From Candidatus Poribacteria bacterium (GTDB lineage Bacteria > Poribacteria > WGA-4E > JAJDTR01), in the NCBI GenBank assembly GCA_028820655.1, contig JAPPIK010000048.1, positions 1-40,858 on the forward strand: a stretch of DNA of 40,858 nt, written 5' to 3'. Shown here piece by piece: positions 441-9,895 of the stretch. Made by a program: the position numbers and the translations under genes. Below the pieces are notes generated by a model that saw only the letters and a list, made by a program, of their open reading frames with translations, ran no database searches and had not been told where the DNA came from. Each line of letters begins with the position of its first letter. Position 1 is the first letter of the stretch.

Positions 441-464
441 AGAGCATCCTCCTTGTAGGGTGGA

Positions 465-500
465 ATCAAGCAAATGGACAGTGAGTGCGATAGAGATATC
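465..500 (+). repeat. 35-bp GATC-ended element, degenerate copy 1
   Basis: Begins AATCAAGC and ends GCGATAGAGATATC. It lies inside a GTAGGGTGG / CCCACC hairpin frame (456-509), so it looks inserted in a second repeat. An upstream GTG at 460 lies within this repeat. For that reason the ATG at 541 is preferred as the start of the TPR gene. Confidence 0.65.
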
Positions 501-540
501 CTGCCCACCATCCTCAACTCCACCATTGGGAAAATCAACC

Positions 541-2049
541 ATGGATCGACAGAAAGCTCAACAACTCTATGAGGAAGGGCTAGTCCTGAAAAAGCACAAA
601 CACTATGACGACGCCCTATCTTGCTTTGAGCAGGTCGTTGAACTTGACGCCAATCATGCCGAAGCGTGGTATCAGATAGGCTGTTGCCGTTCAGAACTAG
701 CCAAACAGAAAATCGAAAGCGCCGAAGAGCGGCTCTGCGCTTATGGTGAGTTTGAACTTTATGAGGGGGCAATAGAGGCTTACCAGAAAGCGATTGAACT
801 CCAGCCAGATTACACAAGCGCCCGTAGATTTTTAGCAGAACTGTTCACCTATTTTGGTGAGATGCAATCCGAGGCGGATAAAGATGATCTATCTGACTGG
901 ATGCGGGCTATTGAGTGGTATAAACAAGCCATCGAAGTTTACCCCGATCTCACCGATTCCTACTATAAATTGGCAGAGGCATACGAGTTCTTATTGGACG
1001 ACAAGTCGATTCACGATTGGGACGATGACGATGTATTCGATCAAACAGGCATCGGCACAGTTGACATCACTGAGAGGCGCATAGAAACCTATCGACAGCT
1101 CACTCGGGTGCAACCCAGAGACGCCAAAGCTTTCTATCGATTGGGAGGAGCATACATAGTCTCTATCGATCCTCTCATTACGCTCTGCCAAGATTACGGC
1201 AATGAATCGACCGACGAAATTGAAGCCATGAGGGAATGGAAACACCCCGTCGTTCACGAGGTGCTCAAAAAAGCGGCAGGAGCGTTTCGGTCTGCCGTGA
1301 GTATTAAACCCGATTACGTATCTGCTTATTTGGAATTAGCAGTGGCGTATCAAGCAATTGGTCAACTGGAGGAGTCGGTTCAAGCCTTCAAACAAGCCAT
1401 TGCCCTTGGCAGCACGGCTCACGACCGACTTGCCAAAGCATATCACGACCTCGGTCGCCAGAAGTTTAGTGGTGGAAACTACACGGAAGCGATTGAGTGT
1501 TATCATAGTGCCATCGTGACCAACTCAAAATACGATGAGGTATATTACGATCTCGGGGTTGCACATGATGAAACTGGACAATACGAGTTGGCAGTCCTGT
1601 GGTACCAACGCGCAAGGAGCGCTTGTGGAGATCCCATTCTGCGTTATAATGACGACTATTTCGAGTCTGCGACGGATGTCTACGCGCATGTAAGGGACTC
1701 CTATGACTATCCCGATCTGTATTATCGCCTAGGAAAAACATATCACAGAATTGGACAATACGAGGACGCCGTAGAAGCCTATCTGGTGGCGATCGATCAC
1801 TTTATAGTTATTGAAGAAGCCTATCATGAGGCGTGCTATGAAATAGAGCGGAACGCGGTTAACCGCCTTGTTGCCCGCCGCCGTGCCGAGCAAGGGGATC
1901 ATGAGGCGTGTAATGAAATAGATCGGAACGCGGTACCCATTAAGCAGGAATATTTGAGTTGTCTTTTGCCCGAGCCGCCCCAGCAACCGGAATGGTGGGA
2001 TAATGTGTTCAAATACAAAGAGTCCGCATCGCGATGTGAACCCTTGTAG
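541..2049 (+). CDS. TPR-repeat protein
   Basis: A 502-residue tetratricopeptide protein, predicted cytosolic (no signal peptide or membrane segment). TPR-like helical pairs recur along the chain, for example YEEGLVLKKHKHYDDALSCF, AIEAYQKAIELQPDYTSA and AYHDLGRQKFSGGNYTEAI. TPRs are protein-binding scaffolds, and no enzymatic domain is visible. The ATG at 541 was chosen because an in-frame upstream GTG (460) lies in a dispersed repeat. The last 80 residues contain an in-frame near-duplication (HEACYEIERNAV, then HEACNEIDRNAV 25 residues later) that looks like inserted repeat DNA. The gene lies about 60 bp before the type IIG enzyme in the same direction, so a functional link is possible but not shown. 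Confidence 0.8.
   Translation: MDRQKAQQLYEEGLVLKKHKHYDDALSCFEQVVELDANHAEAWYQIGCCRSELAKQKIESAEERLCAYGEFELYEGAIEAYQKAIELQPDYTSARRFLAELFTYFGEMQSEADKDDLSDWMRAIEWYKQAIEVYPDLTDSYYKLAEAYEFLLDDKSIHDWDDDDVFDQTGIGTVDITERRIETYRQLTRVQPRDAKAFYRLGGAYIVSIDPLITLCQDYGNESTDEIEAMREWKHPVVHEVLKKAAGAFRSAVSIKPDYVSAYLELAVAYQAIGQLEESVQAFKQAIALGSTAHDRLAKAYHDLGRQKFSGGNYTEAIECYHSAIVTNSKYDEVYYDLGVAHDETGQYELAVLWYQRARSACGDPILRYNDDYFESATDVYAHVRDSYDYPDLYYRLGKTYHRIGQYEDAVEAYLVAIDHFIVIEEAYHEACYEIERNAVNRLVARRRAEQGDHEACNEIDRNAVPIKQEYLSCLLPEPPQQPEWWDNVFKYKESASRCEPL
1823..1934 (+). repeat. In-frame duplicated 37-bp segment within TPR gene
   Basis: Positions 1823-1859 and 1898-1934 are near-identical (ATCATGAGGCGTG, then ATGAAATAGA, then CGGAACGCGGT) and are exactly 75 bp apart, so the frame is kept. 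The second copy is bounded by GATC...GATC, like the dispersed 35-bp element. The spacer starts with the palindrome GCGGTTAACCGC. This is probably repeat DNA absorbed into the coding frame. Confidence 0.6.
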
Positions 2050-2107: not shown

Positions 2108-5100
2108 ATGAACCAACACAAAAACGACATCAAGAACGCCCTCAAGCAGTTCACCGACGGAAACCTCGCCGACAACGCGCGGCGCCTCCTCGACACCCTC
2201 GGCTATTGCAGCAAAAGAACAATGTCCCTCGAACCCAACACCGCCGAGGAATTCATTTATAATTTCGATCCGTCAAAGACAATAAATGCGAACCGGGCGC
2301 TGCTTGATGAATGGGAATCCATTGACATCTTGTTCCAACTGACAAGCGGCGAAATCACCCTGAGCGGCCAAGCCGCACTAGGCTTTGAGAGCAGCGGAAT
2401 AGATAATAGCATCTATCAATCCTACCTCTTCTTCGTTCTGAAACTGCGCGGCGGCAGTTACTCCCGCACCAAGCTTTCGGATATCACTCGCGAAATCAAC
2501 AAGCTCACCCCGATGCCCGCGATGGTAATCTTCCAGCACGGCAGATTGTTGACCTTCGCGGTTATCGATCGGCGTTTACACAGACGCGACGAATCAAGGG
2601 ATGTGCTCGAAAAAGTGACGCTGATTAAGGACATCAATCTCGGGGCGCCCCACCGCGCGCACATCGACATCCTATTCAACCTCTCGCATCGGCAGCGACA
2701 ATTCGCGAATTTCAACGCGCTCCATGAAGCCTGGAAAGAAGCGCTGGACACAGAGACGCTCAACAGAGATTTCTACAAGGGGTTGTTCAAGTGGTTTGAA
2801 TGGGCAGTGTGTGAGGCGAAGTTCCCGGCGGAAGAAGCGAATACGTTAAACCCGCAGGAACACGTTATCCGCTTAATCACCCGCCTATTGTTCGTTTGGT
2901 TTCTCAAGGAGAAGGGATTGGTCGCCGAGGAGTTGTTTCAGGAGGATGGTGTACGAGACTTGTTGAAAGACTACGACCGTGAGGACGGCGATTCCTACTA
3001 CCGTGCCGTGTTGCAAAACCTGTTCTTCGCCACGCTGAACACCGAGATAGAGAAGCGTGAGTTTAGCGCTGAGGCAAACGCCACGCATCGGGACTTCTCA
3101 CGGTATCGTTACAAAAGCCAAATCAGCAACCCGGATAAACTGCTGGAGTTGTTCGCTCAAACGCCCTTCATCAACGGCGGGCTGTTCGATTGCTTGGACA
3201 GCGAGGAGGCAACGGACGATGGCGGCTACCGGATCGACTGTTTTTCGGATAGGCACTACAAAAAACTGAGCCTCCCCAACCGTCTCTTTTTCCACAAGGA
3301 CGACGGTCTGTTTCCCTTGTTGAAACACTATAAGTTCACGGTTGAGGAGAACACGCCGATAGAGCAGGAGGTGGCGCTGGATCCCGAACTGCTCGGCAAG
3401 GTATTTGAAAACCTGCTGGCGGCATACAACCCGGAAACCGGCGAGTCTGCCCGCAAGCAGACCGGCTCCTACTACACGCCGCGCCCCATCGTGGACTATA
3501 TGGTAGAGGAGGCATTGGTAGCGGCGCTGGCGGGACAAGCGCGCTCGACAAACGGTGACGAAGCATTCTGGGAGGAGCGGCTGCACTATCTACTGGATTA
3601 TGCGAAGGCGTCCGACGATGCCGACCAATGGTTCAGTGCCGGCGAGGCCGATAAAATCGTGCAAGCAATCTCGGAACTCAAAATCCTCGACCCCGCCGTG
3701 GGTTCCGGAGCCTTTCCGATGGGAGTGCTCCACAAGCTGACCCTGGCGCTGCGGCGGCTTGACCAGGACAACAGCCGGTGGGAACGGTTACAGAAGGAAC
3801 GAGCGGCAAAACGCGCGGAAGCCGCATTCGACACGAAAGACGACAGAACGCGGCGTGAAGAACTCTTCGAAATCGACGAAACCTTCAAGCGCTACCGGGA
3901 TTCGGATTTCGGTCGAAAGTTGTACCTGATTCAAAACAGCATCTTCGGCGTGGATATTCAGTCTATTGCTTGCCAAATCGCCAAATTGCGCTTTTTCATC
4001 TCGCTTGCGATTGAGCAGGAGCCGGACGAAGAAGCGGAGAATTTCGGTATCAAGCCGTTGCCGAATCTGGAAACACGCTTTATTGCGGCGAACACGCTCA
4101 TCGGTCTCACCATCGTGCGGGATCTGACGAGCGTCAACGCACAGGACATAGAGCGTCAACTGCGCGATAACCGCGAGCGATATTTTCATGCCACGACACG
4201 ACGACAGAAACTTAATTGTAGACGTAGGGATAAGGTACTGCGCGGAAAATTGGCGGCGGAGTTAACGGGTGTCGGAATGCCCGCCGATGAAGCCGAAAAA
4301 ATCGCCTATTGGGATCCCTACGACCAGAATGCATCTACCGACTTTTTTGACACGGTATGGATGTTCGGGATCGCGGATGGGTTTGATGTGGTGATTGGAA
4401 ATCCGCCGTATGTGCGTCAAGAGAAAATAAAAAGCCTCAAACCGACGCTGAAGAAACAATATGATTGCTACACGGGCACAGCCGACCTCTACGTTTATTT
4501 CTATGAGCGCGGTTTTCAGTTGCTGCGGGACAATGGAATTCTGACCTACATCTCTTCAAACAAGTATTTCCGGTCCGCCTACGGCAAGAAACTAAGATCT
4601 TTTCTCGCCCGTCAATCTACTATTTCTCAACTTATTGATTTTGGTGATGCGCCGGTTTTTACCTCAATTGCGTATCCGAGCATCATCGTGATTGGCAAAA
4701 CGCGCACCGGAGGGAATCATCTTCGCGCGCTGAATTGGGAACCGGGCTCGTCCATTGAGGAATTTCGGAGGATTTTTCGGACGAAAGGGTTCTCCATGCC
4801 GCTAGATGCCCTAACCGCTGACGGTTGGCGTCTCACTTCTCCCGTGGTGTTGAATCTGTTGGAGAAACTACGCAGCACGGGTAAGCCGTTGGGTGAATAT
4901 GTAGAAGGACGATTTTATTACGGCATCAAAACAGGTTTGAACGATGCCTTCGTGGTGAACAGAGAAACACGAGATAGACTCATAGCTGAGCATTCATCGT
5001 CTGCTGAAGTATTAAAGCCCATTTTGCGTGGTCGGGATGTAAAGCGGTGGCAGGTTGATTTCGCCGAAAAGTACATCATCACCATCGAATCGTCGGAAAA

Positions 5101-5683
5101 TCGAACGCATCCGTGGTCTGGGCGATCCGCGGACGAAGCGGAGGAGGTTTTCGCCGATACTTATCCCGCAATCCACGCCCACTTGCAAGCGCATCGGGAT
5201 CGGTTGATTGAGCGTTACGATCAGGGGAAATATTTCTGGGAGTTGCGAGCGTGTGCCTATTGGAAGGAGTTTGAAAGACCGAAGATTGTCTATCCCGATA
5301 TAGCACAAAGTGCCGAGTTTGCCTTTGATGATGGCGTTTATATTTTGGGCAATACTTTGTATCTCTTGCCGACCAAGGAGATGTGGCTACTTGGATTGCT
5401 CAACAGCAAAGCAGTATTTTGGTTTTATACAAAAACAAGCACACAAATCCGAGGTGGATTTGTGAGGTTCATTGCTCAATATGTGTCACAAATCCCGGTT
5501 CCCAATATCGATCCATCACAGAAGACACTTGTTGAGAATCTAGTCAATGAGATTCTTGCCGCCAAACATAATGACCCGGACGCCGACATCACCGCGCTTG
5601 AAAATGAGATTGATCGGGTGGTATACTCACTATACAATTTAACCCGCGAGGAAATTGAGATTGTGGAGGGAGTGGCGGAGTAA
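2108..5683 (+). CDS. Type IIG (Eco57I-like) restriction-modification enzyme
   Basis: A 1,191-residue single-chain enzyme expected to methylate adenine in a specific DNA site and to cut DNA nearby. SAM-binding motif I is DPAVGSGAFPMG at residues 528-539, and the N6-adenine catalytic motif IV is NPPY at 765-768, giving the usual order of amino-methylases. The region after about residue 850 has the TaqI-like target-recognition layout (FYYGIKTGLNDAFVV; LKPILRGRDVKRW), and the C-terminus ends in the family's helical tail (LTREEIEIVEG). The N-terminal 500 residues would hold the nuclease; I cannot assign its catalytic residues with certainty. No separate S or R subunit and no BREX genes are adjacent, so a stand-alone type IIG enzyme fits best. 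No clear ribosome-binding site precedes the ATG. Length is normal and the frame is intact. Confidence 0.9.
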   Translation: MNQHKNDIKNALKQFTDGNLADNARRLLDTLGYCSKRTMSLEPNTAEEFIYNFDPSKTINANRALLDEWESIDILFQLTSGEITLSGQAALGFESSGIDNSIYQSYLFFVLKLRGGSYSRTKLSDITREINKLTPMPAMVIFQHGRLLTFAVIDRRLHRRDESRDVLEKVTLIKDINLGAPHRAHIDILFNLSHRQRQFANFNALHEAWKEALDTETLNRDFYKGLFKWFEWAVCEAKFPAEEANTLNPQEHVIRLITRLLFVWFLKEKGLVAEELFQEDGVRDLLKDYDREDGDSYYRAVLQNLFFATLNTEIEKREFSAEANATHRDFSRYRYKSQISNPDKLLELFAQTPFINGGLFDCLDSEEATDDGGYRIDCFSDRHYKKLSLPNRLFFHKDDGLFPLLKHYKFTVEENTPIEQEVALDPELLGKVFENLLAAYNPETGESARKQTGSYYTPRPIVDYMVEEALVAALAGQARSTNGDEAFWEERLHYLLDYAKASDDADQWFSAGEADKIVQAISELKILDPAVGSGAFPMGVLHKLTLALRRLDQDNSRWERLQKERAAKRAEAAFDTKDDRTRREELFEIDETFKRYRDSDFGRKLYLIQNSIFGVDIQSIACQIAKLRFFISLAIEQEPDEEAENFGIKPLPNLETRFIAANTLIGLTIVRDLTSVNAQDIERQLRDNRERYFHATTRRQKLNCRRRDKVLRGKLAAELTGVGMPADEAEKIAYWDPYDQNASTDFFDTVWMFGIADGFDVVIGNPPYVRQEKIKSLKPTLKKQYDCYTGTADLYVYFYERGFQLLRDNGILTYISSNKYFRSAYGKKLRSFLARQSTISQLIDFGDAPVFTSIAYPSIIVIGKTRTGGNHLRALNWEPGSSIEEFRRIFRTKGFSMPLDALTADGWRLTSPVVLNLLEKLRSTGKPLGEYVEGRFYYGIKTGLNDAFVVNRETRDRLIAEHSSSAEVLKPILRGRDVKRWQVDFAEKYIITIESSENRTHPWSGRSADEAEEVFADTYPAIHAHLQAHRDRLIERYDQGKYFWELRACAYWKEFERPKIVYPDIAQSAEFAFDDGVYILGNTLYLLPTKEMWLLGLLNSKAVFWFYTKTSTQIRGGFVRFIAQYVSQIPVPNIDPSQKTLVENLVNEILAAKHNDPDADITALENEIDRVVYSLYNLTREEIEIVEGVAE

Positions 5684-7736: not shown

Positions 7737-9491
7737 ATGCCAGAATTGAATTCTGTGCCTGTAGGCTTTGTATACGATCTCATGAGTGGACCTAACAGAC
7801 ATATTGGAGACGATAGTAAAACGGTAACTCCAAGGTTGCACGATGCTACAGAACATTACAGGCGCCATATTGCAACAAATCAACTTAGTGGTGAGATCGG
7901 GAATGCAAATGAAGAATGCAGCAAAGTTATGGCACTCAATCTCAATGATGCCACAGCCTATAACACCCGCGGAATAGCGTACGGCGAAAAAGGCGATTTT
8001 AGCAGAGCAATTGAAAATTTTGACGCAGCGATAGACCTGAAGTCTGATTATGTCGCAGCCTATTTCAATCGCGGTTTAGCCTACAGTGAACTAGGCGATG
8101 TTGTACATGCCATTAAAGATTTCACCCGAGTAGTACAATTGGATCCCAGTTATGTTGTGGCGTATAACAACCGTGGTGCAGCCTACGACATCCAAGAGAA
8201 GTTGGACCTTGCAATTGCAGACTATACCAAAACTATAGAACTGAATCCTAATTATTCCCAACCATATAATAATCGTGGTGTTGTATACAACAAAAAGGGG
8301 GATTTTGACAGTGCGATTGCGGACTTTAACAACGCGATAGGCTTAAGACACGATGATGCTGAGGCCTATAGCAATCGCGGTTTAGCGTACCTATACAAAG
8401 GCGATTATGACCTTTCCATTGCGGACTTTAACAGGGCTTTAGAATTGGCGCCATTCCTTGCCGGCGGGTATTACAATCGCGGCATTGCTTACAGTATGAA
8501 GGGCGATCACGATATTGCCATCGCAGACTTCACGAAAGCAATGGAGCACCACGAGGGCGACGCCGAAACCCATTACAATCGCGGCGTAGTTTGCGGCATG
8601 AAAGGTGATTATAGACGTGCGATTGCAGACTTTAGCGTTGTAATTGAAATGAAACCCACCGACGCCAGGGCCTATGCCAATCGCGGCATGGCCTACAGCA
8701 ATCACGGTGACTATGATCGTGCTATCGGCGACTATACCAAAGCCATAGTTCTGAAACCCGATGATGCCGATGTCTATAACAACCGCGGAGTCGCCTATGG
8801 CAAAAAGGATAATTTCGACTATGCCATTTTAGATTTTACCAAAGCGATGGAGTTAAAACCTGATGATGCCAACACTTGTAACAATCGTGGCGTGGTTTAC
8901 GTCAAGAAAGGCGAATATGACCTTGCCATTGTAGACTTCAACGAGGCAATACGATTGAAACCCCATTATGCCGATGCCTATAACAACCGAGGCGCAGCTT
9001 ACAGTGACCAAAGGGAGTTCCAGCGCGCCATTGCAGACTTCAATAAGGCATTAGAATTGAAATCCGATTTTGGTAACGCATATTACAATCGTGGTGAGGC
9101 TTGGTTGCACTTGGGAGAACGGATTAAAGCAAAGTCAGACTTGAAGGTCGCGGTAGCAATGGGCGTAAATGTTGTCGCCGCGTTTCATAACCTTTACGAA
9201 AGCGCCCTAGGTTTTGAAAAAAGCAATGGTCTGAAGTTGCCCGATGACATCGCCGCAATATTGACACCCCAAGAGAATGCTATTCGCAGGAAGGAGTTTC
9301 AAGAACGAGCCGTTACATTAATTGAGCGACTGTCGACAGAAGAACTAAAGGTTGTTATTGACTATTTGCTAGATTTACAAAATGGAGAGGCACAAGACAC
9401 GTTTCACCAGTTGGAGATTGATGCTGAAAGTGCCCTAGAGGAAATCTTGAAGAACTACGATCGAGCATGGAAAATTCTTGCCAAACATTGA
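7737..9491 (+). CDS. 12-repeat TPR protein with antitoxin-like C-terminus
   Basis: A 584-residue protein with a GAAGGAG ribosome-binding site. Residues from about 75 to 475 form twelve regular 34-residue TPRs, each carrying a (T/N)RG-x-AY signature such as NRGLAYSELGD, NRGIAYSMKGD and NRGVAYGKKDN. The region after residue 519 is different: FQERAVTLIERLSTEELKVV, then IDYLLDLQNGEA, then acidic helices. It has the pattern of small addiction-module antitoxins, which often start with an 'LIERL..E.L..V..FL..L' helix and continue into a flexible partner-binding tail. The Doc-like toxin begins within its stop codon. I infer that TPR scaffold and antitoxin are fused in one chain. The TPR assignment is firm; the antitoxin assignment is by pattern only. 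No DNA-binding domain is visible. Confidence 0.85.
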   Translation: MPELNSVPVGFVYDLMSGPNRHIGDDSKTVTPRLHDATEHYRRHIATNQLSGEIGNANEECSKVMALNLNDATAYNTRGIAYGEKGDFSRAIENFDAAIDLKSDYVAAYFNRGLAYSELGDVVHAIKDFTRVVQLDPSYVVAYNNRGAAYDIQEKLDLAIADYTKTIELNPNYSQPYNNRGVVYNKKGDFDSAIADFNNAIGLRHDDAEAYSNRGLAYLYKGDYDLSIADFNRALELAPFLAGGYYNRGIAYSMKGDHDIAIADFTKAMEHHEGDAETHYNRGVVCGMKGDYRRAIADFSVVIEMKPTDARAYANRGMAYSNHGDYDRAIGDYTKAIVLKPDDADVYNNRGVAYGKKDNFDYAILDFTKAMELKPDDANTCNNRGVVYVKKGEYDLAIVDFNEAIRLKPHYADAYNNRGAAYSDQREFQRAIADFNKALELKSDFGNAYYNRGEAWLHLGERIKAKSDLKVAVAMGVNVVAAFHNLYESALGFEKSNGLKLPDDIAAILTPQENAIRRKEFQERAVTLIERLSTEELKVVIDYLLDLQNGEAQDTFHQLEIDAESALEEILKNYDRAWKILAKH

Positions 9492-9895
9492 GATATCTGA
9501 CCATTGGGGAAATCCTGTGGGTTGCCAAGAAATGGGTGTGCGATTACAAGCTGCGGGATAAAGAGAGATTAGACTATTTGGTTGAGGCAGTTGGTGGAAC
9601 GTGGGGTGACATAGAACTATATCCGACATTGGCCAAAAAAGCTGCTGTATATGCACATCATATCATTACTGGACATATATTCATGAACGGCAATAAGCGA
9701 ATCGGGATAACTTGTGCTCTCTGGTTTTTGGTTAAGAATGGTTGTACTCTACGTCTTAGCATTGATGATTCGATAGTCTGGGTGGGCTATAGGATTGCAG
9801 ATAGAACAATTACCGACCTTGACATTATCGCCGACTATATGAAATTGTGGATTCGCACACCCGTGGGCGAAGATGACGCACATGGTTCAGATTGA
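9488..9895 (+). CDS. doc: Doc/Fic-fold (death-on-curing) toxin
   Basis: A Doc-family protein of 135 residues if it starts at TTG 9488, which overlaps the TGA of the TPR gene (9489-9491). That start gives the family-typical beginning LRYLTIGEIL. An in-frame ATG at 9467 would add seven residues. The Fic/Doc core is HIFMNGNKR at residues 63-71, followed by the helix ITCALWFLVKNGCTL, and ELYPTLAKKAAV matches the helix before the motif. Doc enzymes of phage P1 type phosphorylate EF-Tu and stop translation. The acidic residue of HxFx(D/E)GN is Asn here (N67). The proline is also missing (HIF for HPF), so activity may be altered. There is no separate Phd antitoxin; the upstream TPR C-terminus is the best candidate for neutralisation. 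Confidence 0.85.
   Translation: MRYLTIGEILWVAKKWVCDYKLRDKERLDYLVEAVGGTWGDIELYPTLAKKAAVYAHHIITGHIFMNGNKRIGITCALWFLVKNGCTLRLSIDDSIVWVGYRIADRTITDLDIIADYMKLWIRTPVGEDDAHGSD

Follow-up and report, generated by a model that had tools for sequence, protein, structure and literature searches.

Phd-Doc toxin-antitoxin (TA) systems, known from P1, Salmonella, and E. faecalis, have the antitoxin gene directly upstream of the toxin gene and translation-coupled to it. In Salmonella, residues 52–73 of Phd are sufficient to inhibit Doc, with hot spots at F56, I59, M60, H63, L67, and L70 (PMC9207808), and the toxin-binding peptide of E. faecalis Phd corresponds to residues 65–79 (PMC13034048). In the PanA-Phd-C:Doc system of C. 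doosanense, such a neutralizing element (Phd-C) lies at the C-terminus of a larger non-neutralizing domain. This domain, Panacea, was proposed as a sensor, and swappable linear neutralizing elements, among them Phd-C on Panacea, have been published (PMC10440598). Here, we describe a locus in which a predicted Phd-C-like antitoxin forms the C-terminal domain of a tetratricopeptide repeat (TPR) protein encoded directly upstream of a Doc toxin gene. The locus is in contig JAPPIK010000048.1 of a Candidatus Poribacteria bacterium (assembly GCA_028820655.1), which was analyzed over its entire 40,858 nucleotides and is referred to as the window.

The locus resembles Phd-Doc in the Doc motif, in the Doc fold (as matched for a relative, L084), in the translation-coupled antitoxin gene directly upstream, and, as far as can be predicted, in a C-terminal neutralizing helix with equal hot-spot spacing (PMC9207808; PMC13034048). 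However, a Phd/YefM or AbrB DNA-binding domain is lacking, and the helix is carried by a 12-TPR array and a helical hairpin. As in PanA, a putative Phd-C is found at the C-terminus of a larger non-neutralizing domain, but the carriers here are TPR, TIR, TIR-TPR, or FRG-TPR rather than Panacea, and the TPR scaffold also bears the unrelated antitoxin UPF0175. Small hairpin antitoxins linked to Doc in Bacteroidota (L087, L130, L156, and others) resemble the 68-aa antitoxin domain over its full length, although they stand alone there and the window domain is fused to TPRs. Finally, pairs of UPF0175 (COG2886) and PIN have been described as TA candidates (PMC2701414). The window bears Phd-C and Doc, whereas UPF0175 is found ahead of DUF3368 in relatives of its scaffold. 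In the literature searched, which included few subscription papers, we found neither TPR, TIR, or FRG-TPR carriers for a Doc antitoxin nor one scaffold serving two toxin families. The locus had been put forward in the preliminary description as a candidate for an undescribed system; the principle of a neutralizing tail is already known (PMC10440598; PMC9207808), but the carrier domains are new within that literature.

The basic layout of the window locus agrees with what the preliminary description had reported, namely 12 TPRs, a Doc start overlapping the upstream stop, and no separate antitoxin gene. The open reading frame (ORF) upstream of Doc has 11–12 TPRs by Pfam and 12 when read by eye for the YNRG-type motif. 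The Doc ORF matches PF02661 (E = 8.6e-11), exceeds the cut-off of TIGR01550 (42.9 vs. 38.65 bits), and contains a motif that fits HXFX(D/N)(A/G)NKR. Depending on the start codon, its overlap with the upstream stop is 4 nt (TTGA) or 25 nt (ATG), and there is no intervening gene for a separate antitoxin. Pfam and NCBIfam scans of the window found only TPRs in the fusion protein, with no Phd/YefM DNA-binding domain, no Panacea (DUF4065) domain, and no recognized family in the tail. As for a shared operator for autoregulation, only short and weak inverted repeats are found upstream of the locus.

The antitoxin nature of this tail is apparent at its C-terminal end. The final 22 residues and the Doc-neutralizing Phd peptide form an ungapped C-terminal alignment, which places the six Phd hot spots at L, I, L, Y, W, and L. 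Across 57 distinct Poribacterial tails, the hot-spot positions rank first in hydrophobicity among 74,613 six-position sets, and none of the shifted registers comes close. Antitoxins encoded upstream of Doc in many phyla and phages have varied N-termini and a common ending. A 16-column motif model was built from 33 such antitoxins, nearly all of which are non-Poribacterial and none of which belong to the TPR-tail family. With this model, the window tail scores 21.8 bits, and all but one of the 51 Poribacterial upstream proteins lie at 12–27 bits. Background C-termini average −12.4 bits (standard deviation 6.2), the best ORF unrelated to Doc reaches 9.3 bits, and all background sequences with at least 11 bits are either Doc-adjacent antitoxins or the TIR-tail protein of genome G012. 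The other ORFs in the window score below −9. On the toxin side, the structure nearest to the predicted Doc of L084 is the Doc of the Doc:Phd-C complex 3dd7 (TM 0.79). By its likeness to Phd-C, the end of the window protein is a predicted Doc-binding helix.

The remainder of the tail completes a small antitoxin. The 69-aa antitoxin domains of four other genomes are 49–56% identical to the window tail over its full length, and in a profile comparison the small Doc-linked antitoxins of Bacteroidota likewise match all of the 68-aa domain (hhalign probability 94.7, E = 5.7e-8). An antitoxin gene of 69 aa stands alone in G018, another Poribacterium; it has 49% identity to window residues 517–584 and overlaps an intact Doc gene. 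In G001, which belongs to the same genus as the window, the stand-alone 69-aa gene is 56% identical and Doc is gone. Both genomes have a separate TPR gene, ending at an LTPQ-type cap, upstream of the antitoxin gene (by 7 nt in G001), such that all three components are unfused in G018 and the TPR and antitoxin components are unfused in G001. Because the two genes stand separate in these genomes, the window protein is, as judged from sequence comparison, a clean gene fusion of a complete TPR protein and a complete putative antitoxin. With a 68-aa antitoxin beyond the TPR cap, the window protein is not a plain TPR protein. The antitoxin-like patterning noted in the preliminary description is therefore borne out by the homologs, the hhalign match, and the motif score, and the boundary that it had placed at residue 519 is at most two residues from the start codon of the unfused homolog. 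The check that it had proposed on the fold of the tail alone gave three AF2 helices (residues 2–15, 18–33, and 41–67; mean pLDDT 66), and comparison of this model with PDB found no TPR match. In two further loci, L264 (1090–1704, minus strand) and L266 (3866–4480), the 69-aa domain is followed by a C-terminal extra domain of about 135 aa of no recognized family. No Doc was seen near these genes, and a 76-aa second hairpin protein with a different tail comes next.

The tail/Doc pairing recurs in approximately 50 Poribacteria genomes; the preliminary description had proposed a search for the gene pair in related genomes. A contig search with a single Doc sequence gave no matches, and matches were obtained with a Doc alignment as the query. 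Among named records, the close relatives of the window Doc are all from 'Candidatus Poribacteria' except for one from KSB1. When the profile matches were tallied by hand from their tables, a tail was present upstream of all 45 full-length Docs of this subfamily in Poribacteria and was intact in 44. Conversely, the 24-residue tail profile (E ≤ 1e-5) identified 69 tails in 61 genomes, of which 25 lack a full-length Doc; most of these have Doc remnants, including internal deletions, frameshifts, and short N- or C-terminal pieces. Loss of Doc thus appears to be tolerated and loss of the antitoxin not, which is as expected of a TA pair and provides indirect support for one.

The start codons of the Doc genes provide further information on this pairing. 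Among 47 genes (46 from Poribacteria and one from KSB1), 19 have only a start that overlaps the antitoxin stop, 16 have only an ATG within the antitoxin Ala-Trp codons, 12 have both, and none has neither. Every Doc gene has at least one overlapping start, and therefore all 47 are, by their predicted starts, arranged for translation coupling. In the 16 loci where the sole ATG lies inside these codons (GCATGG; window 9465–9470), the toxin start and the hot-spot Trp share bases. Conservation of Ala-Trp solely due to a Doc start in GCATGG was rejected as an explanation, since both residues are kept in six of the 47 loci where the codons read GCTTGG, GCGTGG, or GCCTGG.

Most tails are attached to TPR arrays, and the proteins vary widely in length (97–899 aa). 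Three tails are fused directly to TIR, with an intact Doc in G004, a frameshifted Doc beside the second copy in G000, and a Doc remnant in G012. Another three are on TIR-TPR proteins (G037, where Doc is intact, G066, and G039) and one is on an FRG-TPR protein (G010). The unfused genes found beside the stand-alone antitoxins of G018 and G001 likewise include TIR-TPR and FRG. The N-terminal carrier of the putative antitoxin is by these comparisons swappable among TPR, TIR, TIR-TPR, and FRG-TPR.

The scaffold also bears a second, unrelated antitoxin. A search for UPF0175 in Poribacteria gave many matches within large ORFs. Pattern counts in 40 of these ORFs that were fetched (L312–L351) found at least three TPR-like repeats in 36, the post-TPR linker of the window protein in 39, and a DUF3368-like toxin gene next in 34. 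These carriers are TPR proteins, in one case TIR-TPR. Pfam identified TPR plus UPF0175 followed by DUF3368 in L350, and TIR, UPF0175, and DUF3368 in L325. Since proteins of a large Poribacterial TPR family ordinarily end with this linker/cap, antitoxins have apparently been added to the TPR-plus-linker scaffold on at least two occasions. The reading of the tail as a Doc-paired antitoxin fused to TPRs, as given in the preliminary description, is thus upheld but was too narrow, having missed both the TIR and FRG-TPR carriers and this second antitoxin family. The linker/cap is present in 66 of 85 Poribacteria genomes, which have as many as 14 copies each. Many copies are on plain TPR proteins that end at LTPQ, and they constitute a large unnamed family, possibly with further C-terminal partners. 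TPR-UPF0175 loci (L332, L349, and L350) sometimes adjoin a TPR-tail-Doc cassette.

We consider it probable that the locus encodes a TA pair whose antitoxin forms the C-terminal domain of a TPR scaffold, that the tail holds Doc inactive, and that the TPR, TIR, or FRG part is an input module. The antitoxin identity of the tail, its fusion, coupling, recurrence, and swapping of carriers are apparent in the sequences themselves, and the remaining steps of the proposed mechanism are more tentative. From homology and from published experiments on Phd and PanA, we infer that the helix of the tail would bind the Doc groove, hold this EF-Tu kinase inactive, and block EF-Tu phosphorylation, and that translational coupling would prevent Doc from being produced in the absence of antitoxin. 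The TPR array, or TIR, TIR-TPR, or FRG-TPR in relatives, may take the place of the DNA-binding domain and act as the input module. Binding of a ligand, which the preliminary description had suggested could be a cellular or phage protein, or scaffold degradation could then cause the tail to release Doc, which would halt translation, most likely as an abortive defense. The scaffold may be general, given that the same TPR-plus-linker also bears UPF0175, with a DUF3368 (PIN-like) toxin encoded next. A broader proposal, which we advance only tentatively and hold to be somewhat doubtful, is that Poribacteria possess a general class of guarded toxins with a TPR scaffold, frequently combined with TIR or FRG, and interchangeable antitoxins (Phd-C for Doc and UPF0175 for DUF3368-PIN), such that one type of sensor for different toxins would constitute innate immunity.

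Several observations weigh against the view of the locus as a TA pair with an input module. At one position of the motif, the window Doc has N and the 24 other Docs in the alignment have D, although N is within the published consensus. An inactive window Doc resulting from this D-to-N change was considered and not adopted, because N also occurs in the E. faecalis Doc. In L071, a W codon is changed to a stop, so the tail ends before the positions of W67 and L70 beside an intact Doc. The AF2 model of L084, the sole in-frame TPR-tail-Doc read-through found, is confident for Doc and low for the TPRs and the tail (about 60 for the tail). Finally, the locus is located among housekeeping genes and not in a defense island in most genomes of family f2. 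In families f1 and f4, the locus comes after a type IIG restriction enzyme (in the window, G018, two G010 loci, and G014), and the three TIR-plus-tail loci adjoin a PLD-type gene, which in L044 runs on into an SNF2-type helicase (PADLOC C3a139). The defense linkage is partial because of the f2 loci. Another TPR protein of the window (460–2049) is encoded immediately ahead of the type IIG restriction enzyme and lacks an antitoxin tail (motif score −9.6).

The f2 context would also suit an ordinary Phd-Doc addiction module with a passive carrier, in which TPR or TIR merely stabilizes the tail and senses nothing. The Phd-C of PanA neutralized Doc when fused to SUMO but not when isolated (PMC10440598), and many Poribacterial carriers are minimal (97–99 aa with one or two TPRs). 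However, the carriers come from sensor and immune domains (TPR, TIR, and FRG) rather than random folds, the same scaffold bears a second antitoxin, unfused TPR, TIR-TPR, or FRG genes adjoin unfused antitoxins, and f1 and f4 loci are linked to type IIG restriction-modification or PLD-SNF2 genes. We therefore regard a passive carrier as unlikely.

Alternatively, the TPRs may be a targeting adaptor that brings a tail-tethered Doc to given proteins as a regulated Fic-type modifier and not as a toxin. Metazoan FICD combines TPRs and an inhibitory helix within one chain. The L084 model has weak matches to FICD structures, TPRs are protein-binding repeats, and the repeat number is very variable. Nevertheless, none of the six hot spots of a picomolar inhibitor is missing from the tail, suggesting inhibition over loose tethering, the frequent loss of Doc and near absence of tail loss fit a harmful Doc, and Doc has a motif of the NKR kinase type. 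This explanation seems quite improbable. That the tail represents no more than an additional TPR or C-terminal cap unrelated to Doc, as its helical nature and position after the TPRs might suggest, can be rejected with near certainty, since the array already has its own LTPQ cap, PDB yields no TPR match, the domain exists as stand-alone genes without TPRs and on TIR proteins, and matches to the tail profile are situated at the ends of ORFs, next to Doc or, in most cases, to remnants of it.

Table 1. Coordinates of the features at the window locus and in selected relatives.
Feature	Position	Strand	Basis or remark
TPR-antitoxin fusion gene, 584 aa	7737..9491	+	ORF list and Pfam
12-TPR array (limits approximate)	7947..9164	+	PF00515/PF07719 in 11–12 stretches, sequence reading
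Post-TPR linker/cap (VNVVAAFHN...LTPQ)	9165..9272	+	Also on plain TPR proteins and TPR-UPF0175 fusions
Small antitoxin domain, 68 aa: helical hairpin and C-terminal helix	9285..9488	+	Homologs, hhalign, AF2
Phd-C-like Doc-neutralizing helix (predicted), last 22 residues	9423..9488	+	Motif model, Phd hot spots
Doc toxin gene, start TTG 9488 or ATG 9467	9488..9895	+	Pfam, NCBIfam, alignment
Fic/Doc motif HIFMNGNKR	9674..9700	+	Doc alignment
Type IIG restriction-methyltransferase (context)	2108..5683	+	Pfam, neighborhood comparison
TIR directly fused to putative Doc-neutralizing tail	L044 4411-5022; L075 4340-4945; L281 1501-2109	L281 −	Doc intact in one, frameshifted in one, remnant in one
FRG-TPR-tail and TIR-TPR-tail proteins	L265 166-2478; L277 1976-4081; L066 1875-4571	L265 −; L066 −	Doc broken in L265 and L277, intact in L066

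The natural triggers of type II toxins are a long-standing open question. Placement of an antidote on a protein-binding scaffold in place of a DNA-binding domain suggests that the toxin may be held in check until the scaffold detects a trigger. With a candidate sensor and a candidate neutralizer in one chain, in many genomes and for two unrelated toxins, this idea can be tested by domain swaps. Moreover, the forms that combine TIR or FRG-TPR with the putative antitoxin connect TA modules to TIR-type immunity in a sponge-dwelling phylum.
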